Below the pieces are notes generated by a model. It was given only the letters and a program-made list of their open reading frames with translations. It was not told the origin of the DNA and searched no databases. The position numbers were made by a program, and so were the translations under genes. Shown piece by piece: positions 9,499-49,944 of a DNA stretch of 49,944 nt (position 1 is the first letter of the stretch; each line of letters opens with the position of its first letter). Origin of the DNA: a virus; the IMG/VR virus record IMGVR_UViG_3300031705_000008, positions 1 to 49,944 of that record. One strand, given 5' to 3'.

Positions 9499-10034
9499 TG
9501 TATCTACTCAAACTAAAGAAAAAAGGGGATAGTGTGATAGCTGAAGACAATGGTCTATTGGCTGTACCAGAATTCCATAAGTTATTAAAGGAAAAGAAGT
9601 TGGGCGAGAAGGCTATGCGTTATGTAGCATTGAGTCAGGACTACGATTCTCCATATAGGTACTTGAATGAGCGAGATCGGAATAGGCAAATCTGCACGGA
9701 CTTAACAGGGAAGCCTGAATGGGCTGACACTAAACATCCTTTAATGGTGGCGGCAATTAAGAAGTATGGAGAACTACAAAGGGATCCTTTAGATGACCAG
9801 CTCGGAGCGTTCAACAGGAAGATCGATCAATACACTACACTTATAGATAACTGGTTTTTGGATCAGGAAACTGCTGAAGACTTACAGAAGGTAATGATCG
9901 GTATTGAAAAACTATTAGGTACTCGTACTGTTTTGCTGGAGGCTATTGAGCGTCGTGGTGAACGGAAGGTAATTAGTGGTGAACAGAAACTAAGCTTCCT
10001 TGAGAATAGAGCTGCTAGACTAAAAGATTCATAA
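9498..10034 (+). CDS. Protein preceding the large terminase, candidate small terminase
   Basis: A 178-residue protein joined to the large terminase gene by a TAATG overlap. It contains RYVALSQDYDSPYRYLNERD, resembling a segment (aromatic, Asp, SPY, then a charged Arg-rich run) that I associate with proteins encoded just before the terminase in Bacteroidota phages. The C-terminal half is helical (ETAEDLQKVMIGIEKLLGTR). Its position suggests a small terminase subunit or packaging accessory, but no DNA-binding motif is obvious, so the role is inferred from context. Confidence 0.5.
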   Translation: MYLLKLKKKGDSVIAEDNGLLAVPEFHKLLKEKKLGEKAMRYVALSQDYDSPYRYLNERDRNRQICTDLTGKPEWADTKHPLMVAAIKKYGELQRDPLDDQLGAFNRKIDQYTTLIDNWFLDQETAEDLQKVMIGIEKLLGTRTVLLEAIERRGERKVISGEQKLSFLENRAARLKDS

Positions 10035-11863
10035 TGGCTGGTAGATTCGACGTACAACAATACAGACCTATACCTAATCACGGACACCCCAAACTCGACA
10101 CCGATAGTTTAATCTATCAAGACTATTGGGAGGAGGAGATGAACCGCTGCATTAATGGCTATAAACCTATTGGCGGTGCGTGGATACCTGGGAACTACTA
10201 CTGGTATCTTAACTACTATATGATATTAGGTAACGACGGTACAGACGGGAATCGAAAGACTCTTATCTATCCGTGGTATAGAGATATGGATCTTGAATAC
10301 TTTATGCTATTCGACACCTGCCGTAGAGAAGGTAAAGGAATGATCGTAATTAAAGCCCGTGATAAAGGTTTTAGTTATATGAACTCTGGATTAGTTGCTC
10401 ATGAATTCACATTCTTTCCGCATTCCGAGGTCGGAATTGCGGCTGGACTAGGGGTTACTGCGAATTCATTTTTTGATAAGGTTAAGAAGGGGCTGATGAA
10501 CCAACATCCTAATTTCAGGCATGGTTGGTTAAAGGATACTAAGGATACATTAAGGGCAGGTTATAAGGAGAAGAACTCTGAAGGTCGGTGGGATATAAGT
10601 GGTTATCAATCTGTGATACACTGTAGAACCATGGATGATCCAGAAGTTTATAAAGGAGAGCGTTTATCTATAATGATTTTTGAGGAGGCTGGTGAATTCA
10701 AGAGATTGAAGAACGCCTACATGTCTTCCAAGGCTTGCTTCATGGATGGATCTAAGCAGTATGGAGTTCCTGTGGTCGGTGGAACAGGTGGGGATATAGA
10801 TTCTGCCTCTGCCGATTTTATGGATATGTATTATAATGCTGATGCGTTTAATCTTATTCCTATGTTTATTCCTGCGTCTGTTGCATTACACGGATTCTTT
10901 AGTCCTGTTACTGGAGTAGACGACGAACCAGCGGCTCGTAAATTCATTGAAGACGCTAGAGAAGATATACTAAATGGTGGTGGTGATAGTAAGGCGTATA
11001 ATTTACATATACAAAATTACCCACTAACCATACAGGAGGCGTTCTTAAAGACTAAAGGATCGAGGTTTGACATTGCGTTGCTTAATCAACAAAGAGGCCG
11101 TGTGCAAGACCTGAAGGATCCTGAGCAGCACTTAACGACTGGTCATCTTGATTGGGTAATAGGAGATAAAGGATTAACTCAAGAAGTTAAGTTCACTCCT
11201 CATCCTCACGGGCCATATAAAATACTACACCACCCTAAACCTCATTTAACTGGATTAGACATAGGTGGTATTGATAGTTATGATCAGGATCAGGCTGGTG
11301 CGGCACCATCTTTGGGTTGTGCTATGATATTCCGTAGAATAGAGAATACAAACGTACCATATAGGCTTCCTGTTGCAGAATATACAGATAGACCTGAAAC
11401 TGCTGACATGTTTTTCGAAGGATGTCTGAAATTAGCTGTATATTACAACGCACAAATGCTGGTGGAGTATACTAAGATTGGTATACTAGATTACTTCCTT
11501 AGAAATAAGGCTCAGAGGTACTTGAAGACCAAACCTCGTAGTGCACACTCGCCTGGAACTAAGACGAGAAACAACTACGGTGTTCACATGAATAAGCAAA
11601 TTAAGTCATATATGGAGTCATTGATGTACGATTACATAAAGGAAAAGGCAGACGATATATGGTTTATAGACCTGCTAGACGAGTTATGTGACTGGGGTTC
11701 AAGGAATACGGATAGGGCGATTGCATTCGGTTTGTGTCTTATACATGAAAATGATAACTTTGCGATTGAAGTGAAGAATAGAGAAACTGAGTCCATCAAA
11801 GAAAGTGGATTCTCTTATTACAAAAACGATAGTAATGGTACGCCAGTAAAACATAATAGATAA
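10034..11863 (+). CDS. terL: Terminase large subunit
   Basis: A 609-residue packaging ATPase/nuclease that would pump DNA into the prohead and cut it. An atypical Walker A-like loop is at about residues 106-115 (IKARDKGFSY). Walker B is at about 212-219 (SIMIFEEA). The RNase H-like nuclease domain starts near residue 405 with LTGLDIGGIDSYDQDQ (Asp409, Asp414), continues with MLVEYTKIGILDYF, and ends with DELCDWGSRNTDRAIAFGLC, giving the usual acidic residues. The gene overlaps the portal gene by one base (TAATG). Length and order fit terminases of crAss-like and related Bacteroidota phages. Confidence 0.88.
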   Translation: MAGRFDVQQYRPIPNHGHPKLDTDSLIYQDYWEEEMNRCINGYKPIGGAWIPGNYYWYLNYYMILGNDGTDGNRKTLIYPWYRDMDLEYFMLFDTCRREGKGMIVIKARDKGFSYMNSGLVAHEFTFFPHSEVGIAAGLGVTANSFFDKVKKGLMNQHPNFRHGWLKDTKDTLRAGYKEKNSEGRWDISGYQSVIHCRTMDDPEVYKGERLSIMIFEEAGEFKRLKNAYMSSKACFMDGSKQYGVPVVGGTGGDIDSASADFMDMYYNADAFNLIPMFIPASVALHGFFSPVTGVDDEPAARKFIEDAREDILNGGGDSKAYNLHIQNYPLTIQEAFLKTKGSRFDIALLNQQRGRVQDLKDPEQHLTTGHLDWVIGDKGLTQEVKFTPHPHGPYKILHHPKPHLTGLDIGGIDSYDQDQAGAAPSLGCAMIFRRIENTNVPYRLPVAEYTDRPETADMFFEGCLKLAVYYNAQMLVEYTKIGILDYFLRNKAQRYLKTKPRSAHSPGTKTRNNYGVHMNKQIKSYMESLMYDYIKEKADDIWFIDLLDELCDWGSRNTDRAIAFGLCLIHENDNFAIEVKNRETESIKESGFSYYKNDSNGTPVKHNR

Positions 11864-29181: not shown

Positions 29182-32100
29182 ATGTCAGAATTAAACGATA
29201 TTGCAGGCGAATACAGTGGTAATCAAGCAGGTATGGGTGGAAAGCCCAGCCTATTGGATTATTATGAGGAACCCTTAGAGGAAGAAGTTCCAGAGGGCGG
29301 AGGTCAAAATCCGATGTTATCTCATGAAGATGTTTCCCGTATAGCAAGAAAGGGCTCTATTTCTGCCGTCGAAAGTCAGCAAGATCCAGGAGTTTCTGGG
29401 TTGGTTGAAAGAGATAAACAAGCTATTTCAGATGTAGGCATTGATCCTGAATTAATCTTTGAAGGTAACGCTGAGAAGTTTGGTAAGAGTTTAGTCTACG
29501 GTACTGGTATTGTTGTAAATGATATTGGTAACATGATGGATTATGCGTCTATGACTTTACTTCCAGATGAGGTTAGAAAGTCTGATACATTCCTGTCTAT
29601 TACAGAGCGTCTACCTAACTTTCATCAATACGGAGACGCATTGCAAAAATGGGGTGAAGTTCATCAATCCCCTGGTTTAGATGAGTTCACTTTAGATGAT
29701 ATGTTTAAGGCTGAGTTTTGGGCTACAAGTGTAGCTCAAACATTACCTTACATAGCTACTATGGTTATACCTGGTAAGCTTGGTATAGGTGCTGCTACTA
29801 AAGCAATGACTTGGGCTGCAAGAGGTGCAGCTAAGAAAGGGTTGTTTGGCTCAGCTAAGAGATTACTAAAGACTAGATCGACTGCTGCTACAGGAAGACT
29901 TGCAGCGGCAGGCGGTAGTGAAGCTGCTGCTGGTGCGGCGGCTAACATGTCAGGTAAAGGCATAATGGGAGCTTTAGCTACAAGTGCTGTAGGTTCTGGA
30001 GAGGTGGCTTTATCTAGTTTCGGTACTGGTGTGGCTACATTCTTAGGTACGGGTACTGCGACTACCGCAGTTATTGGTGCTGGATTATCAGGGGATGTAT
30101 ATACTAGGGCGTTAGAAATGGGAATGACCGAGGAGGAAGCTCAGTCGGCTGCTCATGGAACATTCATTGATAACTCTAAATGGTTTGCGTTAAACGGATT
30201 GTCTTGGATGATTAACTTCGGGGGATTGTCTGGTAAGGCTTTTAAGTACTTTAACATGAGTAAAGGTGGAGCTGCAAATGCTGCGGTAATATCTAAAACA
30301 TTTAGTCAGAGAGTGTCTCAACACATGATGAAAGGTGTTGTAACTGGTACATTAGAGGGTACTGAGGAAATGTTCCAAGAAACCTACGAAGAATGGATTC
30401 AGGAAACGAACCTAGCAGAAGCTAGAGGTGAAGAGTTCTCGTCTTACTCGGATTTTTTCCAATCTAAAAACAATAGAAAAACATTAGGAGTTTCATTCGC
30501 TGCTGGTTTCCTTATGGGTGGTCGAGCAGGATTAATGAATAGTATTGCCGATAATGGTAGGGCTATCATTCAGAAGCGTGTATCTTTAGATGACGACATC
30601 AACATGATGGAGGGAATGAGCGATTCTCAGAGGCGTACTAGATTAAATGAGGTAGTAGAGGCTGCTGTTAGAGAAGACCAGTTAGACGGTCTAAACGGCT
30701 TCCTTGATAAGATGGCTAGTATAGGTAAAATAACTACAGAAGAACGAGCTGAGTATGATAAAGTTGTAGTTGAATACGCAGAAATCGCTTCTACTCTTCC
30801 GTTCCAAAACGAATTAACTGAAGTAGGGCAGCAGGCTGTATTTAATATTAAGATACGTCAAAATACATTAACTAAAGCATCAGCTAACTTAGAGTCTTTA
30901 AAGGGTAAAAGTATAGCAGAGGCTAAGGAAAACCTAGAAGGCGACGCATTAACTAGTAAGTTAGCTTCAATTGATGCTGAGCATAAAATAAACATGATCA
31001 ATGTTGAGAGAGAGATGTCTGAAAGTAAGACGGCTTTATCTAAAATTGTTTCAGGTAAAAAATATTCGTCTAGCAATAAGACCGCTGATCAGAATAGGCT
31101 GAAAGACATAAGTCAATACACGTCTACTGAAGAGTACCAAAAGGCAAGCGAGACTGAGCAGACGGAAATAATGCAAGAGAAGGTTAACTTGGAGGCTAGA
31201 ATAAAAGAAGACTCTTATGTTATCGAGGATGCAGCTATGTCTCAAGGAGAATTCGAGCAGTTCACTAATAAGGGTGTTGCTGAGAAGACTGAGAGAGCTA
31301 AAGTTAAGGCTGAGGCGGTTGTGGATAAAGTAGAGGGTGCTGTCAAGGGTGCGGCGGTAGCTGGAGAAAAAGGATTTAAAGGTCTTTGGTCTAAAGCTAA
31401 AACTGTAGCAGGTAAGACTGCTGACTTCTTGAAGACTAAGATTAAGGATTCTAAAGAGTCTAGGGCTATTAATAAAATAACTAGACCTCTAGAGGGTGAG
31501 CTGAAGGAAATGATAGACAAAGGAGCTACAGCTTCTGAGGTATCAAACTTCATAATGAAGAAGGTTACTCCTGAGCAATTAAAAGAAACAGGGCTAACGC
31601 AAGACGAACTTGAACTTAAAGTGTCTGGCCTTTCCGATACACTAACTAAAGCTAAGAAAGAAGATGGAGACAGTGAAAGTAAGGAAGACGAGAAAGATGA
31701 TAGCGATAAAGAGGCTACTAAAGAAGGGGAGTCTGAAAGCGAGAAGGATACATCGGAAAGCGCTGAAGCGGCTAACTCAAAAGCTGAAGTAGACGAAGAC
31801 GTTTCTACTCAAGCCAACGCTTTACAGGCGGTTATGGATAAGCTTACTGGTAAATCTAAAGAGGTTGCCGACAAGTTTATGACTACAATTAATGAAGTAG
31901 GATCAAAACTAAGCAAGGCGGATCTAGCTAGTGTGCTGAAAAAAGCAGTAAAGGGTTTGTCTTTGAGTACAGAGAAAGGTCAAGAGGCTTATATAGATAA
32001 ACTAAAAGGATTCATAAACGATAAGGTTGGAAGTATTAAAGAGAGCGTTAAAGCGCCGACAGAAGATTCAGATGGTTCACCTAAATTAGACATTGAAGGT

Positions 32101-35100
32101 AAAATCAAAGAAGCTAAAACTATTCTAGAATCTTTAATGGACGAACATAAAGGTGGGTTCTTTAAGGTTACTAAAAAAGTATCTGGATTTGTTAGTAAAG
32201 CAAACGCTAAGCTTTCTAAGATATGGAAGTCGGAAGCTGGCAACGTAAACATCCGTAAGAAGAAGTCGGAAGGTGCTACGGAAAATAAAAAGGACGATAC
32301 AATATCTCTTTTATCTTATTACGCTACAGCTAATCCTGGAGTTGAGGCTGCAATCATGGAGGCTGCGTCGAATAAATTCCCTAGCCAGCAGTTATTAATC
32401 TTACGTGAGGTAATTGATAATCACGGACAGAATGTTGTTGGATACGCTATGGGAGCTGCGGTTCTAGCAAAGAATGATGCAAACCTTGCTGACACTATAA
32501 TGCACGAATATGGTCACGTATACTTTGACATAATGAAGGATAACCCTTCGTTTATGAGGGGAGCGTCTAAGATTGTTGGATCTGATGTTTATAAAGATGT
32601 TAAGAAGTTATATGCTGAAGAGGTTCTTTACGTCTACAACGGTAACATAGTTAAGGGTGGAGAAATCTTTGACATAGTAGCATCGAATGTAGATATAACT
32701 ACTGAGTTCGGTAAGCAAGTAAAAGAAACAGTTGAAGCTATGGCTACGGCTATCATGGCTGGTGATTTAGAAACTTACGGTTCTCTAAATGCAGGATTCA
32801 TGTTGGACTTACAGAAGACTGGCGTGATAGAAATACTTCCTGATGCAGATCAGAAGCATATAATAGAAGAGGCATTCGTGTCTTCGTTGGCACCTAGGAT
32901 TTCTACAAAACTAGATGTACTGTTTGAGAAGCCAGCAGAAGTAAGAGAATATAAGTCATTCCTTAAAAGAATTACAGGTAAGGTTGTAGATTTTGTAACC
33001 CCTGAAAGTGCTAAGAAGATTTTATCTGAAGTAGATAGGAGCTTTGAGGAGTTGTCTATGGATGAGATGTACAGCCGTATAGCTGATGATTTCGCTACTG
33101 GTAGTAATGGAGCTAATCTTAATGGTATTAAGAAAAGTAAATTACATCCAACAATAGCGTCATCTATATCTATTGCTTTAAATAAAATCCCTGAAGCGGA
33201 CTTTAATAATATGTCAGCCAAAGAGGTTGCAAATCATATCATAGAGTTCGCTAAGAAGGATCAATTCTTTAATAAGAAAGGTGATAAACTTGATGTGTCA
33301 GCGGACGTTAGAGCTGAGGTTGAATTAAGAGTAGCTAAAGAAAAAGAGCGTAGAGCTGGTTTTAGTTTAGATATTACCTATAATGACAACGGTGTTGGTA
33401 GTATATATAAGGCTGCTAAAATGCAGAAGTCTAAATTAACTAAAGAAGAGCAGAACAAAGAAGCTCAAGATAGACTTGCCGAGTTAGATCAAATGGAGGG
33501 TGATGTAAATATCCTTTCCGATGATGTAGCTAGAATGAAGTCTATGGATAATTCTACAACTAAATTCCTTAGAGCTATACTGAAAATTGCAAACCCTAAA
33601 GGTAAGCGAGATGTTAAGTATGACAGAACTAACACTCAAGACTCAGCGGAAGCTAAGTTATGGGCAATGGCTAGGTCTGAAAGAAATGATACAGCAGGAT
33701 TCATAAAGAGATTCAATAACTCTACAGATAAGAATATAGTTAAGATTAGAGAGATCATGAATGAGCACATGTCTAATACGGAAGTATTGGCAGCGCTTAG
33801 TGACATGCACAACAATTATAGAAATAAAAGTTTTGAACGCATAAGGCTTAATACTATTGGTAGTAATGGTCAGCTAATAGAGAGTATGGCTGTATCTAGT
33901 AGTGAATCTAAAGTTCAGGAGTCTATAACTAGAAGAGCTAACGAAGTATTCTACGAAAAGAAAAGCGATAACCCTGCTAGGAGAGATTTAGTTCGTCAAA
34001 TACAGGCAGCTAAGAAATCCTTAGATGCAGGAAAGAAGCTATCTATGAGGGATGCTTTATCTATGGCAGTTCCTATTATGCACTTATCGGATCAAGGTTC
34101 GTACTTGGATTTATCTAAACTTACTGGAGCGAAAGTTAAGGTTGGTAATAAGATTTTAAATATTCAAGACTTCATGACTAAATTCGTTATGGATGCGAGT
34201 AGTTCTAAGAATGAAGTTTATCTTAAGAAAGGTCAGGTTCCTATAATGTTCATTCAGCCTTTAGTTAAGTCTATGGTTCCTGCCTCTAGAGGTAAGAACG
34301 CTATAAAGTCTGTTAGAGATGTTAGCGGTAAAAACTACTTAGCATTCAACATGAATAACAGCTTACTTAATAGTGTTGATTACTTGGTTGATTTAGCTAA
34401 AACACCTGAAGGTAGAGATAAGCTTAGACGTGATTATATAACAGAAAAGGAAGGAGAGAATCCTTCTGGAAATGTGTTCGTTAGAATGCTTATCGGTATG
34501 GGAGAGAATGGTCAAGCAGATCAAGCTCTTGATGTAGCTTTTGATGGTGGGATTATATCTCACAAGCCAGGCGGTAGATCTAAAGCTTCTAGATATACAG
34601 AGAAGACTAAAGATGATATTGTACAGTTTGACTTAGAGTCTTTTGCTGCTAACTGGGATTCAAGAAGTCCAGACGGAAGTATGTCTTATTACACGCAACC
34701 TATTGCAGTATTTGCAGATGGTAAGCGTAGATATTCTATATCAGCTCCAATGGCAACTACGGAGTCTAAAAAGCAAGACACAATTAACGCCTTACTTAAC
34801 GACGGACTTCATGCTGGAGGAAAGACTTACGCTGACGGTAAAGAAATTGTTGATTGGTTAGCTAAAGATGGTACGGTAGATTTAAGTAAGCACAACGAGG
34901 CTATGAAGGCTTGGTTGGAGGCTAATCCAGATCTAGTTGAAAACAATCCTAGACTGGCTAAATTTGCTGTAGTTAAGGGTGGTATGGTAGAGGTGACTGC
35001 TGAAGGTATGAAGATGATTGAAGATTACAACTTCAACTACCTATCTAACTCGTTAATGGCTCAGTCATTACTTGTTGGTAAGCATGAGCAGGCTAAATCT

Positions 35101-38100
35101 AATTCTGATTACGTTAAGAGAGCTAAAGGTGCAATCGCAAGACATGATGGATCTCTTAGAGGTACTTCTATTGAGCCTTTAATAATTAAAGATATATACA
35201 GTAAGACTGGAAACGAAGAGACTGATGCTGGTTCGTTTATACTACCCGAAGATGTTAAATACATTGAGAGTCGTGTAGGCAAAAGAATGGGTAGAGGCTG
35301 GAAGTTCGTGTACTACGGAAGCGACAAGAGAGGTGTCGGAGCAAATAATAGTGCTGCTGGTAAAGCTGATTATTACTTAAAGACTAGCGTTCAGGTTCTT
35401 ACTAAAGAATTCATAGGTGAATCTAAAGAACTTCAAGGTATAGCTGACAAGCTTAAAGCTAGAAGACAACATACTGCTGGTGGTGAAACACTTAATATGG
35501 CATTCTTTGAGTCGGCTGCTAAAAAAGCTCCATCAATCCACGGTGGCGGTAAGGGTATAGCTTGGGATGCTGATTTCGGTAAAGATTCTGAGGCTTGGAC
35601 TGAGTTGGATAACAACTTCATGATGGGTAAAAAGATGATTGGTATTGATGGTGCTAACATGGGGATTCAACTTCCTATGGATCACTTCTATGAAGAGATT
35701 GGAACGCCAGTACAGCATCACGGTTCTATAAACAATGACCTGACAGAGGCGGATAAAATCGCAGTAGATGAGATTATTGTATTAGAGGCTGACATAATGG
35801 ACGCAGCTCTTGAAGAGGCGACTAAGGATGTTACATCTAACGGTCTTAGTACACCTTCAGGAAGATTGAAGAGTAAGTCTTCTATAGTAAAGACTATGAG
35901 TAAGTCAGCTGTTACGGCTATAACGAATGGTCTAGCTAAGTTCAGACACTTATCCAATCCTAATATAAGCCAAAACCTTCCTTCAGTAGTGAAGATATAC
36001 GCTAACCAGGTTAAGAGTTTGATCAAGAAGTCCGCTAAAGTAATAACTAGTGGTACTATAGCTATACAAGGTGTCTCCGTAGGTAAAGGTCTTAACGGAT
36101 TTAAAACCAAAGACGGAGCAGATTATATAGGAGATAGATATATTGTTCAGGCTGACGGTACTATGATTAAGAGACCTCAGATACTTCCTGCTGAGGCTAT
36201 TGTTCCTGCTGGTCTTGCTGGCAAGTACATGGCTAGAGTTGATCAGGAGTTCGGAACTATTGGCGAGGCTAAAGCTCACGCTGATTCTATGGTAACTAAA
36301 AATGCAGGATCTTCTAATATAGATAATGCTGGTATTAAGATTAAAGGCTTAGATAGAAAGTTCCCAAGCGAAAGAGCAGCTAAAGAGTTCTTATACGGAA
36401 GAATAGCTGTAATGCCTGGAGGTAAACTGGTTATACTAGGTGAGGAGTTTACAGGTTCTCGTGTACCGTCTCACGGTAATCAAGCTAGGGTTGTAATGGA
36501 GATTAAAGGTTTCCAAACTAAAGTTCTAGATGAGAATGGAAATAACAGAAATAACATTATACAAGTATCTTCTGAGGTAAACAACGTATTAGGTTCCGAT
36601 CATGATGGGGATGTATTACACATGAACTTCAGATACGATAATCCTAAAAACCCTAGAGAGGTTAAGGTTAATCAATACATGGATAAGGTTATAACTCACT
36701 TCCAAAATGTTAATAAGTTTAAGCAATTGACTGCCGATTTAGGTGGGTTCGTTGCTGAAGTTGATGCTAGAATCGCTGCTGTTTCAGACGGTAAAACTGA
36801 AAGGTTTGATCAGAACTCGCCAATGGGTGCTGCTGAATTCTTCGAGGAGAATGTACAGGGTAGTTCTATGATTGGTTCTGTTGCTGCATTAAACAACGGT
36901 ATGGCTTATCTTTCTAGGTATAACGTCGGTATAGGAATGACTACTGGTATAACTATAGATGGTGATACTATACATGAGTTCAATAACGACTTAACTAAAG
37001 AGGGTAAAGAAGCTTTATCTTTCCAGAACGCAATGTTACTGAATGTCGTATTGGATAATGCAAACAACCAACAAGCAACTGCTTTAGGTATAAACCCTTC
37101 TACCGTAGCTTCGATAGCTGTACTTACTAGAATGGGATTCAAAGCTAAAGCTTTAGATAAGATATTCACTTCTGATGCTGCAAAAGCTTACGCTAAGTTT
37201 AAAGGTAAAAAGTCTATTGGAAGTAATTCTAAATGGAGCTCTTTATCTGCTTCCGAGGCTGCTATTATAGATATGAGGCTTGCTCCTGACGCAAAAGGTG
37301 CTAGACTGTTGTTATCAAAAGCGAAGGTTGGGTTAAGAGTTACTACAGATCAAATAGGAAGTATTGAAGAATCTATAAACATACTAGCATTACTAGAGTC
37401 TACGGAAGGAATTTCTAAAGATGTATATGCTATAAATAAATTAGTAGGTCAACACAAGTCTTCTGGTATAGGATCTAATAATTCCGAAGTCCAGCTTGCA
37501 ATGGAAGAGTCCGACAAGGTTCTTTCAGGAAGGTCTATACTTAGAGGTGAAGGATTAAATGAATTAGCTAAGAATCCGCTAATAAAATCATTCAAAGCTA
37601 GATCGAACAAGCTTGCATCTATATACCAATCTAATGACTTGACTGCTACACCTCACGCTGAAGCTACTCTAGATTTAATTATGAGTCTTACGGGTAATAA
37701 AAATATAGCACGTAGAGACGGTGATGAGCAATCTAAAGTAATTAAAGAATATTACTTAGGTATATTGACTAGTCACGTTCCTGCGTTTGCGAAAGCAAGC
37801 AAGTACATAGGAATGACGAACGAAAGAGTTCCTAAGTTGGCTGTATCTATTCTACACAAAAAGGTTGTGGCTCAAATGGAAGAGGTGATGCGTAAAGGTC
37901 ACAATGACTTTATTGCTGCCGTTCAATTGGATGTTAGAGAAACATTCAAAGGAGTAGACCAATATTCAATATCTCCGAATAGAGAGTATATAAATGAGTA
38001 TACTACAGATCAAGAATTGGATGCTATAAGTGAAGGGTTCGCTAACTTAAGTGAAGAGCTTAGGTCGGATATATTGAATTTAGACTTCCTGCTTAATGAA

Positions 38101-41100
38101 GGTGGAATGCACTCTAGTTCTATTCAGCCATTAATGGATTCAGATACTTTAGTTTCTATTAGTAAATCAATAGATTCTGTTCATCAAAACTTGATCAACG
38201 AAAACAGCGGAATGACTTCTGCGGTTGAGGTTGCAGACCACTTGATTTTATCTAATCCAGACATTGTGACTACAGGAATGTACATACACAAGAATGGATC
38301 TGTAGACGCTAGTAATGGTTCATTATCTAAAGCGCTTAAAGCTAAAAGAGTTGTTAGCTCTATTCAGCGTGACGGTATAATATCCAATAAACCTCACTTC
38401 ATTAAGGTTATAAAAAATCTACCTAAAGGAGGTAAAGAGGTGCGTATGTTTAAGTACAAACCAATCCCTACTAAGCTGTACAAAGAACTTAGAGCGAAGC
38501 ACAAGAACGATAATAGTTTCCTTGCTGCATTACAACTTGAAGGTGTGTATAGAGATATGGGTGAAACCACATCTCCTGACGGAGGAAAGAAAGAGAGCGC
38601 TGCTCTTCTTAATTACAAGAAAATGAAGAGAGCTGCTGAAGCTAATAACTCCTCTCCTTTAATTAATATGAAAAAACTGAAGTTCTCTAACACTAAAACT
38701 GGAGGAGAATCTGGTTTCAGTAATAGAGCTGAGGCTTTTAACTTTGATGAGTACATACAGGACAAAGGGCATCGAGCCCAATCAGTCGAAGACAGCCCCA
38801 AACTCAAGGAGGCTTTAGAAGAACTCTATAACAAGTATATTGCAAATTTTAATTTAGCCCAGGAGTTTGATAAGACTATCATTCAAACTGGGAAGATTAA
38901 AACTCTTTCTAAAGAACGCTTGATAGATTACGCTAGGTTATTCCAGAGACTGGATCCTAGTGCGGTTTCGTCTTCTCACAGAGCTGTTGTTCTTGAGATG
39001 GCACACAGAGCTGCCGACGAACAGAAAGCCTCTAGGAATGGAAAAGAATGGAAGGATACGGGAGACATCTCTTGGCTTCATTCATGGTTTGGTTCTAATA
39101 ACATCCCTGGTCATAGACCTGAAATCCAAAGACTAGTTAGGTTAATGGAACAAGAGTATGATATTTTTATGGCGGAGAATGTTTCGTTCCAGAAAAAACT
39201 AGACAACCTTACTAAGGATTTAATCAGAGAGAGAATGCCTGTAGTTATGGGTATTGAAGGTACTGGTGAAGCTTTTGTTCAGGAAAAACATTGGACTGGT
39301 AGTCTTTCTGAAGAGAAAAATCAAGCCCTGTACGCTAACATGTACTCTAAAAAGGATGGAGAGTTAGTTCTAAAGAATAGAGCTGAGTTCTTGAAGTCTA
39401 AACCAGGGAAAGCAGAGAGAGCGTTCTACGAGTTCTTTGTTGAGACCACAAACAAGTACGGTAAGATTAGTGCTGAAAGCTTGGGCGAGCGATGGAAGAC
39501 AGGATATATTCCTCACCTTCAGGTAGGACTTAAAGAGTCTATTCGTCAGAGAGGATTATTTGGATTGTACGACTATATGCTTCAAGGAACTGGAGATATA
39601 GATATGGTTAAGGTTAAAGGTATAAACCCAATGACTGGGAAGACGCAAACTAAATCTTTCCATGATTGGAAGTATTTGTATTACGAAGCTAAAGGCGTAA
39701 AGAATAAGAAATGGTATAAAGCCTTAACTGTAAAGCAATTTAAAGCAACAGCAGATCTTGACGTTATAAGACGAAGAGCAGAAGGGTTGGCTAAGACAGG
39801 GAAGCACGAGGATGGTTCTACAATATCTAGAAGTGAACAAGAGGTTCATGGAATGATGGGGACTAGCATGATGTCTAGGTTTGCTAAATCTAGAGGAGTT
39901 AAGTCTGCTATGTTCGGTTCTGCCGATCTTGGTAGGGCTTTATCTCAATACGTTAATACAACAATGTTCGTGTACGGTAATGAGAACTTTAAAGGGTTCA
40001 GAGAAATGCAACCTTTACTTGATGGAGTTATAAAACTAAATGAAACTAAAGGTAACACCAACGCTGTCAGGTACTTAGAGAATGTTTGGAAGAAAGGGTT
40101 CTACAATTTAGGAGAGTCTCAGACTGGATTAGGTAGACTTACAGATGGAGCTATACATAAGTTGGTTAAACTTACAAGGATTAGATTCTTATCGTTAAGT
40201 CTCTCTGGAGGTCTTGGTAATTTGGTTGTAGGTAAATACAATGAATACAGATCTAAGGGTGGAAGGCAAGTTATCGTCGGAGAGAAGAGGTACTGGACTG
40301 AGAGAAAGAAGTCTTGGGCTTTAATTAAAGGTAACTTAAATCCAGAATCTTTTGCTTATGACTTAATACAGGGTAATGACAGTAATGGTATAAACCAATT
40401 ACTAATGTCTCCTTATATAATGTCAGAACACTACATTCAAGGAGCTGGTCTTGTAGGTCAATTCACTAAAGAAGAATGGGCAAGAATAGGTGCTGACGGC
40501 TCCGTTCCAGCAGACCTAAAAGAGCGAGTTGATTTGTACGTTGAAAACGTAGTAAGACAACAAGGTTACGGTTACTCTAGGGTTGATCAGATTGGTATTG
40601 CTACTTACTCTTGGGGTAAGGCTATAATGCAATTCAAGAAGTGGATGCCTACCGCTTTAGCTGAAAGATTCCAACAAGAAACTATAGATAGGTTCGGTGA
40701 AATGAGAACTGGTAGTAATATGGAAGCATTCAAACTTGGAGCTGAGTTAACTAGAGATGTTATGGCTGGAGATATTAGCATGGAGAAATTCATGGAAAAA
40801 TACAGGGTATTGCCTGAACATAAAAAAGAAGCAATCAAAACCTTCTATAGAGGTATGAGCGTCGTTAGTGGTTTGACTATGTTATCAATGTTATTCGGTG
40901 AATCGGATGATGATGAGGCTATTGCATTCTGTAAGTGGGCTGACTCTTCTGTTGATGATATAATGTTTATGACTGATCCTAGAAGGATGAAACACATGTT
41001 AGAGCCTGCGTCTTGGCAGATAGTTGAGTCTGGTACAACAATGATTGCTGGAGCTGCGACACTTGATAAAGATCAATTCAAAGGTGGATTGGCGGGTATT

Positions 41101-41163
41101 AGCTGGACTGCTTCTCAAGTATTAAATACTAGCGAGACAGCCGTTAAGAGTATAGAAAATTAA
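29182..41163 (+). CDS. Giant virion RNA polymerase-like protein with metallopeptidase motif (3993 aa)
   Basis: Segments in order. Residues 180-360 contain Gly/Ala-rich hydrophobic stretches (AQTLPYIATMVIPGKLGIGA; ALNGLSWMINFGGLSGK), likely membrane-active. About 826-880 is a Lys/Glu/Ser low-complexity stretch. Residues 1108-1112 are HEYGH, a zincin motif, with Glu1229/1230 (HIIEEAFVSSL) as possible third ligand. Residues 2014-2069 (TDAGSFILPEDVKYIESRVG, then ADYYLKTSVQVLT) look like the first double-psi barrel. Arg2427-x-Pro-x-x-His2431 and DHDGD at 2473-2477 match the catalytic second barrel of two-barrel RNA polymerases, known in virions of crAss-like phages. The C terminus has a hydrophobic helix near 3893. 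It probably enters the host and transcribes early genes. Alternatives are unlikely for the DHDGD part. Confidence 0.8.
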   Translation: MSELNDIAGEYSGNQAGMGGKPSLLDYYEEPLEEEVPEGGGQNPMLSHEDVSRIARKGSISAVESQQDPGVSGLVERDKQAISDVGIDPELIFEGNAEKFGKSLVYGTGIVVNDIGNMMDYASMTLLPDEVRKSDTFLSITERLPNFHQYGDALQKWGEVHQSPGLDEFTLDDMFKAEFWATSVAQTLPYIATMVIPGKLGIGAATKAMTWAARGAAKKGLFGSAKRLLKTRSTAATGRLAAAGGSEAAAGAAANMSGKGIMGALATSAVGSGEVALSSFGTGVATFLGTGTATTAVIGAGLSGDVYTRALEMGMTEEEAQSAAHGTFIDNSKWFALNGLSWMINFGGLSGKAFKYFNMSKGGAANAAVISKTFSQRVSQHMMKGVVTGTLEGTEEMFQETYEEWIQETNLAEARGEEFSSYSDFFQSKNNRKTLGVSFAAGFLMGGRAGLMNSIADNGRAIIQKRVSLDDDINMMEGMSDSQRRTRLNEVVEAAVREDQLDGLNGFLDKMASIGKITTEERAEYDKVVVEYAEIASTLPFQNELTEVGQQAVFNIKIRQNTLTKASANLESLKGKSIAEAKENLEGDALTSKLASIDAEHKINMINVEREMSESKTALSKIVSGKKYSSSNKTADQNRLKDISQYTSTEEYQKASETEQTEIMQEKVNLEARIKEDSYVIEDAAMSQGEFEQFTNKGVAEKTERAKVKAEAVVDKVEGAVKGAAVAGEKGFKGLWSKAKTVAGKTADFLKTKIKDSKESRAINKITRPLEGELKEMIDKGATASEVSNFIMKKVTPEQLKETGLTQDELELKVSGLSDTLTKAKKEDGDSESKEDEKDDSDKEATKEGESESEKDTSESAEAANSKAEVDEDVSTQANALQAVMDKLTGKSKEVADKFMTTINEVGSKLSKADLASVLKKAVKGLSLSTEKGQEAYIDKLKGFINDKVGSIKESVKAPTEDSDGSPKLDIEGKIKEAKTILESLMDEHKGGFFKVTKKVSGFVSKANAKLSKIWKSEAGNVNIRKKKSEGATENKKDDTISLLSYYATANPGVEAAIMEAASNKFPSQQLLILREVIDNHGQNVVGYAMGAAVLAKNDANLADTIMHEYGHVYFDIMKDNPSFMRGASKIVGSDVYKDVKKLYAEEVLYVYNGNIVKGGEIFDIVASNVDITTEFGKQVKETVEAMATAIMAGDLETYGSLNAGFMLDLQKTGVIEILPDADQKHIIEEAFVSSLAPRISTKLDVLFEKPAEVREYKSFLKRITGKVVDFVTPESAKKILSEVDRSFEELSMDEMYSRIADDFATGSNGANLNGIKKSKLHPTIASSISIALNKIPEADFNNMSAKEVANHIIEFAKKDQFFNKKGDKLDVSADVRAEVELRVAKEKERRAGFSLDITYNDNGVGSIYKAAKMQKSKLTKEEQNKEAQDRLAELDQMEGDVNILSDDVARMKSMDNSTTKFLRAILKIANPKGKRDVKYDRTNTQDSAEAKLWAMARSERNDTAGFIKRFNNSTDKNIVKIREIMNEHMSNTEVLAALSDMHNNYRNKSFERIRLNTIGSNGQLIESMAVSSSESKVQESITRRANEVFYEKKSDNPARRDLVRQIQAAKKSLDAGKKLSMRDALSMAVPIMHLSDQGSYLDLSKLTGAKVKVGNKILNIQDFMTKFVMDASSSKNEVYLKKGQVPIMFIQPLVKSMVPASRGKNAIKSVRDVSGKNYLAFNMNNSLLNSVDYLVDLAKTPEGRDKLRRDYITEKEGENPSGNVFVRMLIGMGENGQADQALDVAFDGGIISHKPGGRSKASRYTEKTKDDIVQFDLESFAANWDSRSPDGSMSYYTQPIAVFADGKRRYSISAPMATTESKKQDTINALLNDGLHAGGKTYADGKEIVDWLAKDGTVDLSKHNEAMKAWLEANPDLVENNPRLAKFAVVKGGMVEVTAEGMKMIEDYNFNYLSNSLMAQSLLVGKHEQAKSNSDYVKRAKGAIARHDGSLRGTSIEPLIIKDIYSKTGNEETDAGSFILPEDVKYIESRVGKRMGRGWKFVYYGSDKRGVGANNSAAGKADYYLKTSVQVLTKEFIGESKELQGIADKLKARRQHTAGGETLNMAFFESAAKKAPSIHGGGKGIAWDADFGKDSEAWTELDNNFMMGKKMIGIDGANMGIQLPMDHFYEEIGTPVQHHGSINNDLTEADKIAVDEIIVLEADIMDAALEEATKDVTSNGLSTPSGRLKSKSSIVKTMSKSAVTAITNGLAKFRHLSNPNISQNLPSVVKIYANQVKSLIKKSAKVITSGTIAIQGVSVGKGLNGFKTKDGADYIGDRYIVQADGTMIKRPQILPAEAIVPAGLAGKYMARVDQEFGTIGEAKAHADSMVTKNAGSSNIDNAGIKIKGLDRKFPSERAAKEFLYGRIAVMPGGKLVILGEEFTGSRVPSHGNQARVVMEIKGFQTKVLDENGNNRNNIIQVSSEVNNVLGSDHDGDVLHMNFRYDNPKNPREVKVNQYMDKVITHFQNVNKFKQLTADLGGFVAEVDARIAAVSDGKTERFDQNSPMGAAEFFEENVQGSSMIGSVAALNNGMAYLSRYNVGIGMTTGITIDGDTIHEFNNDLTKEGKEALSFQNAMLLNVVLDNANNQQATALGINPSTVASIAVLTRMGFKAKALDKIFTSDAAKAYAKFKGKKSIGSNSKWSSLSASEAAIIDMRLAPDAKGARLLLSKAKVGLRVTTDQIGSIEESINILALLESTEGISKDVYAINKLVGQHKSSGIGSNNSEVQLAMEESDKVLSGRSILRGEGLNELAKNPLIKSFKARSNKLASIYQSNDLTATPHAEATLDLIMSLTGNKNIARRDGDEQSKVIKEYYLGILTSHVPAFAKASKYIGMTNERVPKLAVSILHKKVVAQMEEVMRKGHNDFIAAVQLDVRETFKGVDQYSISPNREYINEYTTDQELDAISEGFANLSEELRSDILNLDFLLNEGGMHSSSIQPLMDSDTLVSISKSIDSVHQNLINENSGMTSAVEVADHLILSNPDIVTTGMYIHKNGSVDASNGSLSKALKAKRVVSSIQRDGIISNKPHFIKVIKNLPKGGKEVRMFKYKPIPTKLYKELRAKHKNDNSFLAALQLEGVYRDMGETTSPDGGKKESAALLNYKKMKRAAEANNSSPLINMKKLKFSNTKTGGESGFSNRAEAFNFDEYIQDKGHRAQSVEDSPKLKEALEELYNKYIANFNLAQEFDKTIIQTGKIKTLSKERLIDYARLFQRLDPSAVSSSHRAVVLEMAHRAADEQKASRNGKEWKDTGDISWLHSWFGSNNIPGHRPEIQRLVRLMEQEYDIFMAENVSFQKKLDNLTKDLIRERMPVVMGIEGTGEAFVQEKHWTGSLSEEKNQALYANMYSKKDGELVLKNRAEFLKSKPGKAERAFYEFFVETTNKYGKISAESLGERWKTGYIPHLQVGLKESIRQRGLFGLYDYMLQGTGDIDMVKVKGINPMTGKTQTKSFHDWKYLYYEAKGVKNKKWYKALTVKQFKATADLDVIRRRAEGLAKTGKHEDGSTISRSEQEVHGMMGTSMMSRFAKSRGVKSAMFGSADLGRALSQYVNTTMFVYGNENFKGFREMQPLLDGVIKLNETKGNTNAVRYLENVWKKGFYNLGESQTGLGRLTDGAIHKLVKLTRIRFLSLSLSGGLGNLVVGKYNEYRSKGGRQVIVGEKRYWTERKKSWALIKGNLNPESFAYDLIQGNDSNGINQLLMSPYIMSEHYIQGAGLVGQFTKEEWARIGADGSVPADLKERVDLYVENVVRQQGYGYSRVDQIGIATYSWGKAIMQFKKWMPTALAERFQQETIDRFGEMRTGSNMEAFKLGAELTRDVMAGDISMEKFMEKYRVLPEHKKEAIKTFYRGMSVVSGLTMLSMLFGESDDDEAIAFCKWADSSVDDIMFMTDPRRMKHMLEPASWQIVESGTTMIAGAATLDKDQFKGGLAGISWTASQVLNTSETAVKSIEN

Positions 41164-41190: not shown

Positions 41191-41733
41191 ATGGCGAACA
41201 CCCTAAATACTGACATTGCAAAAGAACTTAACATAACAGCTAGGAGGAATGACACCTTCCAGATGCTATTGGAGGTTAGGGATTCTAACGATACTTTAAT
41301 AAACTTCTCAGACGTAAACGATTTAAGTTTACCTGTCTACCAATCTAAGATGACTATATCGAATACTGGTGGTGATAGAATATTAAGTATCTATAGCGAT
41401 AAATGGAGAAACTCTAGCGAAGGTGTTGTTGCTTCAAACCCTGACGGTGATGGATCAAACTATACCCTACCTTCTGACGTACCACCCTCACCAACAACTG
41501 AAGGTCATTACACTGGAGGAACTGGAGTAGGTTCGGCTATTCACTTAGCGGCACAAACGACAAGTGGGAAGGTGACTATAAACGTACCTTATACTTACGT
41601 AGACTTTCAGGCAGGAACATATAATTACGACTTTCAAATAAGAAAGCAAACCTCTGCTGCTGGAGCTGTGGAATACACTACATGGCTTTACGGAACATTC
41701 ACTCTTAGGTCTGACATCACTAAAGTAGGATAA
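41191..41733 (+). CDS. Tail adaptor protein, BppU-N-like fold (180 aa)
   Basis: Begins MANTLNTDIAKELNITARRN, followed by DTFQMLLEVRDSNDTLINFS. The same block (DIAK..(N/D).TARR.D.F) opens the product of the gene at 48121. Both end in a strand pair with Gly-Thr-Tyr-x-Tyr (AGTYNYDFQIRKQ). The layout resembles the N-terminal domain of phage upper-baseplate proteins that join fibres to the tail. This copy has an insertion of about 45 residues rich in Gly, Ser, Pro. It overlaps the next gene as TAATG. Confidence 0.6.
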   Translation: MANTLNTDIAKELNITARRNDTFQMLLEVRDSNDTLINFSDVNDLSLPVYQSKMTISNTGGDRILSIYSDKWRNSSEGVVASNPDGDGSNYTLPSDVPPSPTTEGHYTGGTGVGSAIHLAAQTTSGKVTINVPYTYVDFQAGTYNYDFQIRKQTSAAGAVEYTTWLYGTFTLRSDITKVG

Positions 41734-46432: not shown

Positions 46433-47173
46433 ATGTCTGCTATATTTCAAATACAAGATCTAGATGGTAGTCTCATTACGGATAATGCTCCAGGTGATGG
46501 TTACGACGGATCAATACTATTCCCTGAGATTAACCTATCCCAGGACGAGTCTAGTCTTGTTGATACTCAAGTAATCAATCTTGTTGGTGGGTGGAATATG
46601 ATTTCCACTTATCTAGATGTAGACGCTCAGATAGGTAGCTTTGCTTCTGGAAAAGATATAGCTGACATTATAACTGCTGGTCTTTCTGAGGGGTGTAGTG
46701 CTATTATAGTTAAAGACTATCTAGGTTCTGCTTGGTTGCCTGAGTGGGATTTTAATGGTATAGGAGGAATGGTTAATGGTCAAGGCTACCAAATGAAGGT
46801 TAGTGGATCTTACAACGACTCACATACACTAACGCTCACGGGAAACCCTATTGAAACGGTAGGAATTTCTAATGGAGGAATGGAGCTTGTTCAATTCGGA
46901 ACCATGGCTAACTATGTTCAAGGTTGGAGCGTAATTGGAGTGCCTATAAATACAGGACCTCAAGGCTTGGCTGTTGATGTTGTCTTTAGTGATTTAGTGA
47001 GTCAGGGAAAGGTTATTATCATAAAGGATAATCTCGGATCCGCATTCCTTCCTAATTGGAATTTTAATGGGATCGGTCAGTTGTATTCAGGTCAGGCTTA
47101 TCAGATGAAAACAACAGAAGCTTGCTCTTTAATGTTCTCTGGATCTTACGGAGTTGATATTGGAGGACACTAA
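46433..47173 (+). CDS. Protein with two copies of a WNMIST/GQGYQMK domain (246 aa)
   Basis: Two related units: residues 52-123 (GGWNMISTYL ... IIVKDYLGSAWLPEWDFNGI ... GQGYQMK) and 164-226 (GWSVIGVPIN ... IIIKDNLGSAFLPNWNFNGI ... GQAYQMK). A domain of this pattern recurs in secreted and surface proteins of Bacteroidota, as I recall it. Here it is probably part of an appendage, perhaps contacting the host surface. The N-terminal 45 residues are separate and acidic. It overlaps the next gene by TAATG. Confidence 0.6.
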   Translation: MSAIFQIQDLDGSLITDNAPGDGYDGSILFPEINLSQDESSLVDTQVINLVGGWNMISTYLDVDAQIGSFASGKDIADIITAGLSEGCSAIIVKDYLGSAWLPEWDFNGIGGMVNGQGYQMKVSGSYNDSHTLTLTGNPIETVGISNGGMELVQFGTMANYVQGWSVIGVPINTGPQGLAVDVVFSDLVSQGKVIIIKDNLGSAFLPNWNFNGIGQLYSGQAYQMKTTEACSLMFSGSYGVDIGGH

Positions 47174-48015: not shown

Positions 48016-48116
48016 AACTAATAACTAAAATTATTAAACTAACTTTGTATCGTAAGAGCATAAAGGCTACCATTATAAGTAAGAAGCCTGTGGTTGTTAC
48101 CATACATAAAACATAA
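48012..48116 (+). CDS. Possible 34-aa basic peptide
   Basis: ATG at 48012 overlaps the TGA of the preceding gene (ATGA), and the frame stops at 48114-48116, four bases before the next ATG. The peptide MKLITKIIKLTLYRKSIKAT ends in VVVTIHKT. The overlap and tight fit favour a real small gene; the short length keeps confidence low. It could also merely allow ribosomes to move on to the adaptor gene. Confidence 0.35.
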   Translation: MKLITKIIKLTLYRKSIKATIISKKPVVVTIHKT

Positions 48117-48120
48117 AGAG

Positions 48121-48513
48121 ATGACTAAATTATCTGTTGATATAGCAAAGAAGTACGACTTAACAGCCAGAAGAAAGGATTCTTTTTACTTAAAGATAGC
48201 CTTATCTAACGACGATGGAACTGTATATAATATAACCAACTCTGCTAATTCAGCTTATAGAGCTGATTTTAATATATACAACAGCAACGATGAGTTAATT
48301 CTAGCATTCACTTCTGAGACAAGTGCTCAACTACCCTTAATAGTAAATTCTATTGCAGTAACAAAAGAGACTGCCACGCTAGTTATAAGCACAACAGCTA
48401 ATAATATGGGTATATACACGGGGACTTATAAGTATAAACTTGTAGTAAGTGATGCTACCGACAATGAAACAAATACTGTAATGATTGGTAAGTTTAAAGT
48501 TGTAGACATATAA
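48121..48513 (+). CDS. Second tail adaptor protein, BppU-N-like fold (130 aa)
   Basis: The start at 48121 (MTKLSVDIAKKYDLTARRKD) is chosen over an upstream ATG at 48094 because it aligns with the start of the paralog at 41191 and has an AAAGAG leader. The fold is an Ig-like strand set (FYLKIALSNDDGTVYNITNS; GIYTGTYKYKLVVS). It lacks the Gly/Ser-rich insertion of its paralog. Its TAA overlaps the ATG of the long fibre (TAATG), so adaptor and fibre are coupled. Confidence 0.65.
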   Translation: MTKLSVDIAKKYDLTARRKDSFYLKIALSNDDGTVYNITNSANSAYRADFNIYNSNDELILAFTSETSAQLPLIVNSIAVTKETATLVISTTANNMGIYTGTYKYKLVVSDATDNETNTVMIGKFKVVDI

Positions 48514-49944
48514 TGGCTAACACTACGGTAGACATAACACTTGCATCGAAATCAGATCCAACCATAAACATAACAACCATAGATGGTGGTGTTGTTTCTG
48601 GATCAGCACCTCTTGCTTCGTTAATATCCTACATAGCTACAGGACCTGTAGGCCCTACGGGTTCTAATGGAATACAAGGAGCCCCAGGAACGTCTATTAT
48701 AGGAAACAACTCTATTGGTTTTCAGCACATAATTAACGATTCCATTACTGGAGCTAAGATAGCTCACTACACTATAACGGACATAAATATAGCTTCAGGA
48801 GCTATTACTGCTGATAAATTAGAAGGCGGAACTATAACTTCCGATAAAATTAAAGATGGTGCTATAACGGCATCAAAGATTGCAGAGGGAGCTATAACAG
48901 AACAACTTATTGGTGTGTTTGCTGATGATGCTATTACTGAGGCTAAAATAAAATACTTAAGCTTAGGTCCTTCTGTTATAAGTTCTCAAGCTATCTTAAC
49001 TTCTAAGATTAAAGATAGGAATGTAACTGGAGCTAAGATAGAATCTAACGCAGACTTAGATGGAGAGGTTAAGGTTAATAACTTAAAACTTAAAGGTTCT
49101 TCTCCTGCTGTTATTACGGGGCCTGATGCCTTTCCTTTACAGTTAAAAACAAACGCCACACTAGATATTCTAGATACTTCAGGGGTAACTAAAGTTTCCA
49201 TAGATCAAAGTGGTAATTTAACTATTGAAGGTACTGTTGACGGAAGAGATATTGCTGTTGACGGAGCTAAGCTTGACACTATATCAGCTAATGATGCTAT
49301 AGATTGGACTGCAGACCAGGGATCTACAAACATACATTCAGGTAATTACACTGATACAGACACTGTATACACGCACCCTACCAACCACGCTATCTCAGTT
49401 ACGACTGGACTACAAACTGCGCTCGACTCTAAAGTAGATGACGGTCAAGTACTTACGGATGTACCTTCAGGTGCATTATTTACAGACACAGACACTGTAT
49501 ATACCCACCCTGCAAATCATGCAATTTCTGTTACGACAGGACTTCAGACAGCATTGGATGGGAAAGTAGACGATAGCCAAGTCCTTACCGATGTTCCTAG
49601 TGGAGCTCTCTTTACGGACACAGATACAGTGTATACTCATCCCGCTAATCACGCTATATCTGTAACCACTGGATTACAAACTGCATTAGATGGTAAGGTT
49701 GACGACAGTCAGGTTCTTACAGACGTGCCTAGTGGTGCTTTATTCACCGATACAGACACTATATACTCTCACCCAGCTAATCATGCCATTTCTGTAACTA
49801 CAGGACTACAATCAGCTCTAGACGGAAAGGTGGATGATGGACAAGTATTAACAGATGTGCCTTCGGGAGCTTTGTTTACTGATACGAATACCGTATATAA
49901 CGATACAACTATACAAGCAGAGGTTGATTTAAATACAGCCAAAA
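48513..49944 (+). CDS. Tail fibre protein, cut by the right edge (first 477 aa)
   Basis: Open from ATG 48513 to the end of the window without a stop. Order: short N-terminal domain (MANTTVDITLASKSDPTINI), a collagen-like patch (GPVGPTGSNGIQGAPG), a run of GAIT..KI..G-type repeats (DINIASGAITADKLEGGTIT), a KVSIDQSGNLTIEGTVDG segment usual in phage fibres, then four full and one partial 44-residue repeats. Such proteins trimerise and carry the receptor-binding tip at the C terminus, which lies outside the window. The N terminus probably docks on the adaptor encoded just upstream. Confidence 0.75.
   Translation, partial: MANTTVDITLASKSDPTINITTIDGGVVSGSAPLASLISYIATGPVGPTGSNGIQGAPGTSIIGNNSIGFQHIINDSITGAKIAHYTITDINIASGAITADKLEGGTITSDKIKDGAITASKIAEGAITEQLIGVFADDAITEAKIKYLSLGPSVISSQAILTSKIKDRNVTGAKIESNADLDGEVKVNNLKLKGSSPAVITGPDAFPLQLKTNATLDILDTSGVTKVSIDQSGNLTIEGTVDGRDIAVDGAKLDTISANDAIDWTADQGSTNIHSGNYTDTDTVYTHPTNHAISVTTGLQTALDSKVDDGQVLTDVPSGALFTDTDTVYTHPANHAISVTTGLQTALDGKVDDSQVLTDVPSGALFTDTDTVYTHPANHAISVTTGLQTALDGKVDDSQVLTDVPSGALFTDTDTIYSHPANHAISVTTGLQSALDGKVDDGQVLTDVPSGALFTDTNTVYNDTTIQAEVDLNTAK
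49350..49944 (+). repeat. 132-bp tandem coding repeats in the fibre gene
   Basis: Units begin at 49350, 49482, 49614, 49746 and 49878, each 132 bp (44 codons); the fifth diverges after about ten codons. Units two and three give identical 44-residue peptides (YTHPANHAISVTTGLQTALD is part of it) although 31 of 44 codons differ. Related KVDD.QVLTDVPSGALFTDT repeats occur in other marine phage fibres, as I recall. Confidence 0.85.

Follow-up and report, generated by a model that had tools for sequence, protein, structure and literature searches.

Polyubiquitin genes consist of head-to-tail repeats that encode nearly one protein and carry many synonymous differences, a pattern explained by purifying selection on the protein combined with (presumably neutral) drift at silent sites (PMC10457151). 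Repeat arrays of phages can be unstable, as shown for Campylobacter phage CP220, where six of the seven tandem repeat regions examined were present in mixed lengths within one plaque-purified population (PMC2853527). Modular fibre repeats are reported to form homotrimers typically (PMC12220804). A search by title of one open-licence library revealed no study of codon use against recombination in the fibres of natural phages, and none of fibre duplications.

Here we analyze a fibre repeat array, of the same appearance as polyubiquitin, at the end of a stretch of viral DNA of 49,944 nucleotides (IMG/VR record IMGVR_UViG_3300031705_000008), the whole of which we call the window. The original prediction for this array left two options: either the repeats are old and under very strong protein constraint, or selection promoted silent change, given that recombination between identical units would shorten the fibre. 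The second option, an evolved anti-recombination design, was the one presented as interesting.

The fibre gene and its repeat units

The features relevant to the array are the following.

48513..49944, + strand: 5' part of a tail fibre gene; 477 codons fall within the window, 3' end open at the contig end
48770..49040, + strand: 10-residue GAIT..KI-type repeats, located proximally in the fibre gene (families D2-D4, 30-nt spacing, 61-79% identity)
49350..49481, + strand: 44-residue repeat unit 1; 93% DNA identity with unit 1 of the sister fibre L002
49482..49613, + strand: 44-residue repeat unit 2, identical in protein to unit 3; 92% DNA identity with L002 unit 2
49614..49745, + strand: 44-residue repeat unit 3, identical in protein to unit 2 but with 31 different codons; 91% DNA identity with L002 unit 3
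49746..49877, + strand: 44-residue repeat unit 4; 93% DNA identity with L002 unit 4 and with the last unit of L003
49878..49944, + strand: exit from the array, TDTNTVY (start of a partial fifth unit) followed by unique sequence; the contig stops 67 bases past the array

The four-unit repeat is real beyond doubt. The encoded protein matches phrog_24456 (E 3.1e-29; residues 330-415, in three stretches) and phrog_892 (E 6e-18); by its significant profile match it belongs to phrog_24456, a PHROG family of tail fibre proteins, and this family match shows the gene that starts at 48513 to be a tail fibre gene. The sister gene in L002 has a 729-codon frame that ends in a stop. AlphaFold2 monomer prediction for residues 165-477 of the window protein together with 11 relatives (12 sequences) gave a mean pLDDT of 36.7, too low for a usable model, and a PDB sequence search with the window protein yielded no match up to E 1.

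Several other features of the window were recorded in passing. The terminase (10034-11863) has 207 matches, those listed being 28-30% identical and including uncultured phages with names in 'cr', which we take to be crAss-like phages, as well as Flavobacterium, Bacteroides and Cellulophaga phages; these matches suggest a phage that infects Bacteroidota and is a distant relative of the crAss-like phages. Two small proteins, at 41191-41733 and 48094-48513, are apparent paralogues at their starts (DIAKELNITARRNDTF / DIAKKYDLTARRKDSF), and each immediately precedes genes of the virion or fibre type. The protein at 46433-47173 contains two internal repeats (..IIVKDYLGSAWLPEWDFNGIGGMVNGQGYQMK / ..IIIKDNLGSAFLPNWNFNGIGQLYSGQAYQMK) and has no match in Pfam or PHROG. 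Between the virion genes, 29182-41163 is a single open frame of 3993 codons, which is very long given the size of this phage record. A tRNA scan found none.

Silent divergence in the window and in its family

The original prediction that units 2 and 3 encode one protein with 31 different codons is confirmed, with 44/44 residues equal and 31/44 codons different; the two units share 99 of 132 bases (75%), with a longest exact run of 8. The leucine changes that it singled out, CTT/TTA and CTC/TTA, are correct as well, the full set of Leu pairs being CTT/TTA, TTG/TTA, CTT/CTT and CTC/TTA. Unit 4, said to differ at most wobble positions with few residue changes, indeed has 39-40 of 44 residues in common with units 1-3 and differs from them by 23, 23 and 28 synonymous codons. 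The window pairs other than 2-3 show 23-29 synonymous differences and 3-5 residue changes; across all six pairs, DNA identity is 71-75%, and the longest exact match between units in register is 8-14 bases. Because units 2 and 3 of L002 are equal at only 40/44 residues (with 28 synonymous differences), the exact protein identity is peculiar to the window: the underlying property is strong similarity, which in this sequence happens to be perfect. Between the window units, dN estimated by NG86 is 0.02-0.10, and dS is saturated, beyond correction. The low dN, compared to the saturated silent sites, shows that every unit is subject to strong purifying selection.

The amount of silent divergence was compared with two kinds of expectation. 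If each unit chose its codons independently according to the codon usage of the phage, units 2 and 3 would be expected to differ at 26.0 of 44 codons, compared to the 31 observed (P(>=31)=0.08), and for all six window pairs, 159 synonymous differences were observed against 143 expected (one-sided P 0.033). This slight excess, like the shortness of the in-register exact matches (8-14 bases at most), is in the direction that selection against recombination would produce, and it counts against the explanation that we prefer, namely, neutral saturation of silent sites. However, when synonymous codons were permuted among the positions of each unit, with the codon composition of the unit fixed, there was no excess in the window (159 observed versus 157.5 expected, P 0.45), and the counts were similarly close in L002 (148 versus 147.0) and L003 (64 versus 67.4). 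An excess over genome usage that is absent from the within-unit shuffle points to slight differences in codon composition between units rather than position-by-position avoidance of identity. Neither were the longest exact runs in the window significantly shorter than in the shuffled units (mean 10.17 versus 10.85, P 0.35). Silent divergence among the window units has reached its ceiling, at about the level of random synonymous rewritings of one protein.

Relatives of the array were collected in two viral scans (the best 80 of 81 and the best 80 of 198 confirmed loci) and one scan of genome contigs, which contributed 3 weak relatives. A unit profile search detected at least 148 ORFs with a unit, and these were reduced to 75 clusters by merging genes that share a unit at >=88% DNA identity, a rule that also removes repeat views of one contig; L003 and L004, which are identical over 6465 bases (two contigs), were counted once. 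There were 53 cluster representatives with at least two units, and 33 genes provided 100 within-gene pairs (>=25 shared columns, >=15 comparable codons); the shuffle set consisted of the 26 arrays that passed a stricter filter (units >=30 columns).

Weak selection in one array of 44 codons could escape these tests, whose power is limited. None of the 26 representative arrays showed a significant excess of synonymous differences in the within-unit shuffle (P(>=obs)<0.05), so that the excess seen in the window relative to genome usage was not repeated. The 10 saturated arrays (mean synonymous difference >=0.5) had 559 differences against 563.2 expected (Stouffer z 0.02), and 14 of the 26 fell below z -2, that is, their units are still traceably similar. 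Comparison with neutral expectation, a check proposed along with the original prediction, accordingly places the synonymous divergence of the window no higher than that of the shuffles or of the other saturated arrays. Codon design against recombination implies more synonymous differences than independent choice would give, and such an excess was found neither in the 26 arrays nor in the window under the shuffle, against P 0.033 for the window under genome codon usage.

The family also includes arrays with similar DNA units. Over the 100 within-gene pairs, synonymous difference spans 7% to 94%, and the total of 1263 synonymous differences compares to 1492.9 expected under independence. In 12 of the 33 genes, some pair of units differs at less than 30% of synonymous codons, the best pair reaching 95% DNA identity (L092), and in 6 genes some pair is at least 88% identical in DNA; in 12 genes, every pair shows at least 50% synonymous difference. 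Six of the 33 genes, including L002, the sister of the window, have a pair that combines >=88% equal residues with >=55% synonymous difference. For the 73 between-gene unit pairs in the 0.9 bin of residue identity, the median synonymous difference is 0.55, which indicates that the module is constrained across phages. By these comparisons, the window array is at the old end of an age continuum and does not represent a special coding style. Phage isolates are represented as well: in INPHARED, 12 records match the array and 11 match the family consensus; the four isolate records examined have units shorter or more diverged than those of the window, and in one of these phages, Vibrio phage K469, with six units of ~25 residues each, synonymous differences range from 2/15 to 10/16, again a continuum.

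Metagenome contigs make up most of the relatives, and if these were assembled from short reads, an array of identical 132-base units would often end up collapsed or broken, so that recently duplicated arrays are probably under-counted; among contig ends less than 2100 bases from an array, 9/28 lie within the nearest 300 bases, a somewhat crowded distribution. Such loss would exaggerate the apparent scrambling of the family and therefore lends no help to the anti-recombination reading. That similar units are found in spite of this bias, in 12 of 33 genes, is an observation of the kind that the original prediction had named as contrary to selection for scrambled repeats.

The sister array, recombination and exchange

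The sister fibre L002 has all four units, each in its corresponding position. Units in the same position in the window and L002 are 91-93% identical in DNA and differ at 10-24% of synonymous codons (NG86 dN 0.01-0.03, dS 0.20-0.41), whereas units in different positions are 69-77% identical, with 51-72% synonymous codon differences. Consequently, the units had fully diverged before the array came to be shared with the L002 lineage. No gene conversion or homogenization among units since that time was detected in this comparison, and the window and L002 lack the signature of a concertedly evolving array, in which paralogous units are more alike than orthologous ones (here 69-77% versus 91-93%). 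Together with the low dN (0.02-0.10) and saturated dS within the window, these figures, which include the comparison of dN and dS across units and relatives that the original prediction called for, support its first option, old repeats under very strong protein constraint. Saturated silent sites, however, tell the age of the units only as 'old', and silent saturation alone does not separate duplication in situ from the import of units.

Import, in which four units from the fibres of different phages were joined and so were saturated from the outset, is a reading that has in its favour that the units do move between phages. Just upstream of the array (48094-49014), the window and L002 are 47-68% identical, compared to 88-97% over the array itself; the block 49000-49944, which includes the array, has about 90% DNA identity with L002:2675-3628. 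L002 and L003, in turn, are 90-97% identical over the last units, with a drop to 57-64% downstream. The terminases of these relatives are only 58-59% protein-identical to that of the window (58% for L002). For phages that are otherwise so distant, this sharp rise in identity at the array suggests a recent exchange of the fibre segment that contains it. Furthermore, unit 1 of L003, at 68-70%, is no nearer to unit 1 of the window and L002 than to other units. Nevertheless, all four window units contain residues that are rare elsewhere: VLTDVPSGALF and SVTTGL are each present in 4 of 4 window units but in just 1 of the 81 units taken from other genes (a count of 0 of 81 for TDTDT was disregarded, since the extracted units begin past this motif). 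The best units outside the sister array show only 72-78% DNA identity. The shared rare residues point to duplication within the window lineage, and we consider assembly of the array from imported units unlikely.

The arrays of L003 and L004 have three units, and the second of these (L003:3136-3267, also in L004) is a chimera. Its bases 1-93 match unit 2 of L002 (92/93), and bases 99-132 match unit 3 of the window and L002 (34/34); among the 22 sites that are diagnostic for unit 2 or unit 3, the first 16 are of the unit 2 type and the last 6 of the unit 3 type (permutation P 0.0002). At the junction, L002-type units 2 and 3 share just five bases, AGTCA. This chimera is the footprint of the loss of one unit, or of out-of-register rejoining, across diverged DNA. 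Divergence, then, did not prevent recombination between units: with a DNA identity of ~70-75% between units and a 5-base shared tract at the junction, the loss of one unit was not blocked. The protective role that the original prediction had offered as its second option finds no support here, scrambling having been ineffective in at least one lineage, and given also the lack of excess in the shuffle tests and the similar units in relatives, we regard selection of silent changes against recombination as highly improbable.

The loss of a unit in L003/L004 also bears on a reading without any codon selection, in which arrays of similar units are often trimmed, so that the four-unit arrays that persist are those that happened to diverge. 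The continuum from 7% to 94% synonymous difference is compatible with such survivorship, as is the loss itself. Yet the pair involved in this loss had reached saturation beforehand, pairs of similar units are hardly rare (12/33 genes), and assembly bias alone could deplete similar arrays; survivorship is therefore an unlikely account of the window. A combined scheme, under which weak selection at the level of codon composition (or survivorship via repeated trimming) holds long-lived arrays at the silent ceiling and turns the array into a tolerable recombination joint, seems to us rather less probable still; if true, it would mean that phages swap fibre ends in register while the array seldom shrinks. 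The low DNA identity of the units may, as a side effect, give the array some additional stability, with no sign of selection for that effect.

A model of the array and its relation to known systems

Taken together, these results are very probably accounted for by tandem duplication in the distant past, combined with strong purifying selection on the fibre-shaft module and neutral saturation of the silent sites. Under this model, one 44-residue module would have been duplicated in tandem long ago to give four units, as suggested by their order, length and shared array-specific residues, and each copy would then have been held to one protein sequence by strong purifying selection. The constraint probably arises because each unit packs as an equivalent step of a (trimeric) fibre shaft, as could be expected from the general biology of modular fibres. 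The silent sites would drift freely to saturation under the codon bias of the phage, in agreement with the shuffle tests, and the array still recombines internally, including between diverged units, and passes from phage to phage.

With respect to described domain families, the core of the window unit gives a weak match to PTR (phage tail repeat-like, Pfam PF12789), 20.6 bits compared to the gathering cut-off of 27, so that by the Pfam rule the window, as well as L002 (21.1) and L003 (16.5), stays outside this family; the cut-off is passed by the related fibres L147 (Vibrio phage K469) and L148 (Vibrio phage vB_VmeM-32). The window unit is distinguished from PF12789 by its length of 44 residues and an extra VDDSQVLTDVPSGALF stretch.

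The strong conservation of each copy between orthologues agrees with what Persi, Wolf and Koonin 2016 describe for protein repeats in general (PMC5120217). The same authors report relaxed or positive selection between the copies within a protein (PMC5120217), whereas the copies in the window are held nearly identical. The difference from polyubiquitin concerns homogenization: there, the repeats of one species usually resemble each other more than those of another species, a pattern ascribed to concerted evolution, which is disputed (Nei et al. 2000 as cited in PMC10457151), whereas in the window, orthologous units are far more alike than paralogous ones, and homogenization is lacking over this span of time.

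Scrambling the codons of synthetic repeat genes, by title the subject of PMC10094428 and PMC12365220, produces the same look, one protein repeat encoded by different DNA, but is designed, whereas codon choice in the window is indistinguishable from drift; the within-unit shuffle of synonymous codons is a simple control that is due before any claim of anti-recombination coding. Compared to all these systems, the window array is an ordinary, though pretty, case, with no sign of purposeful scrambling of the DNA, and illustrates cleanly the extent of silent drift that is possible in a fibre repeat whose protein stays fixed.
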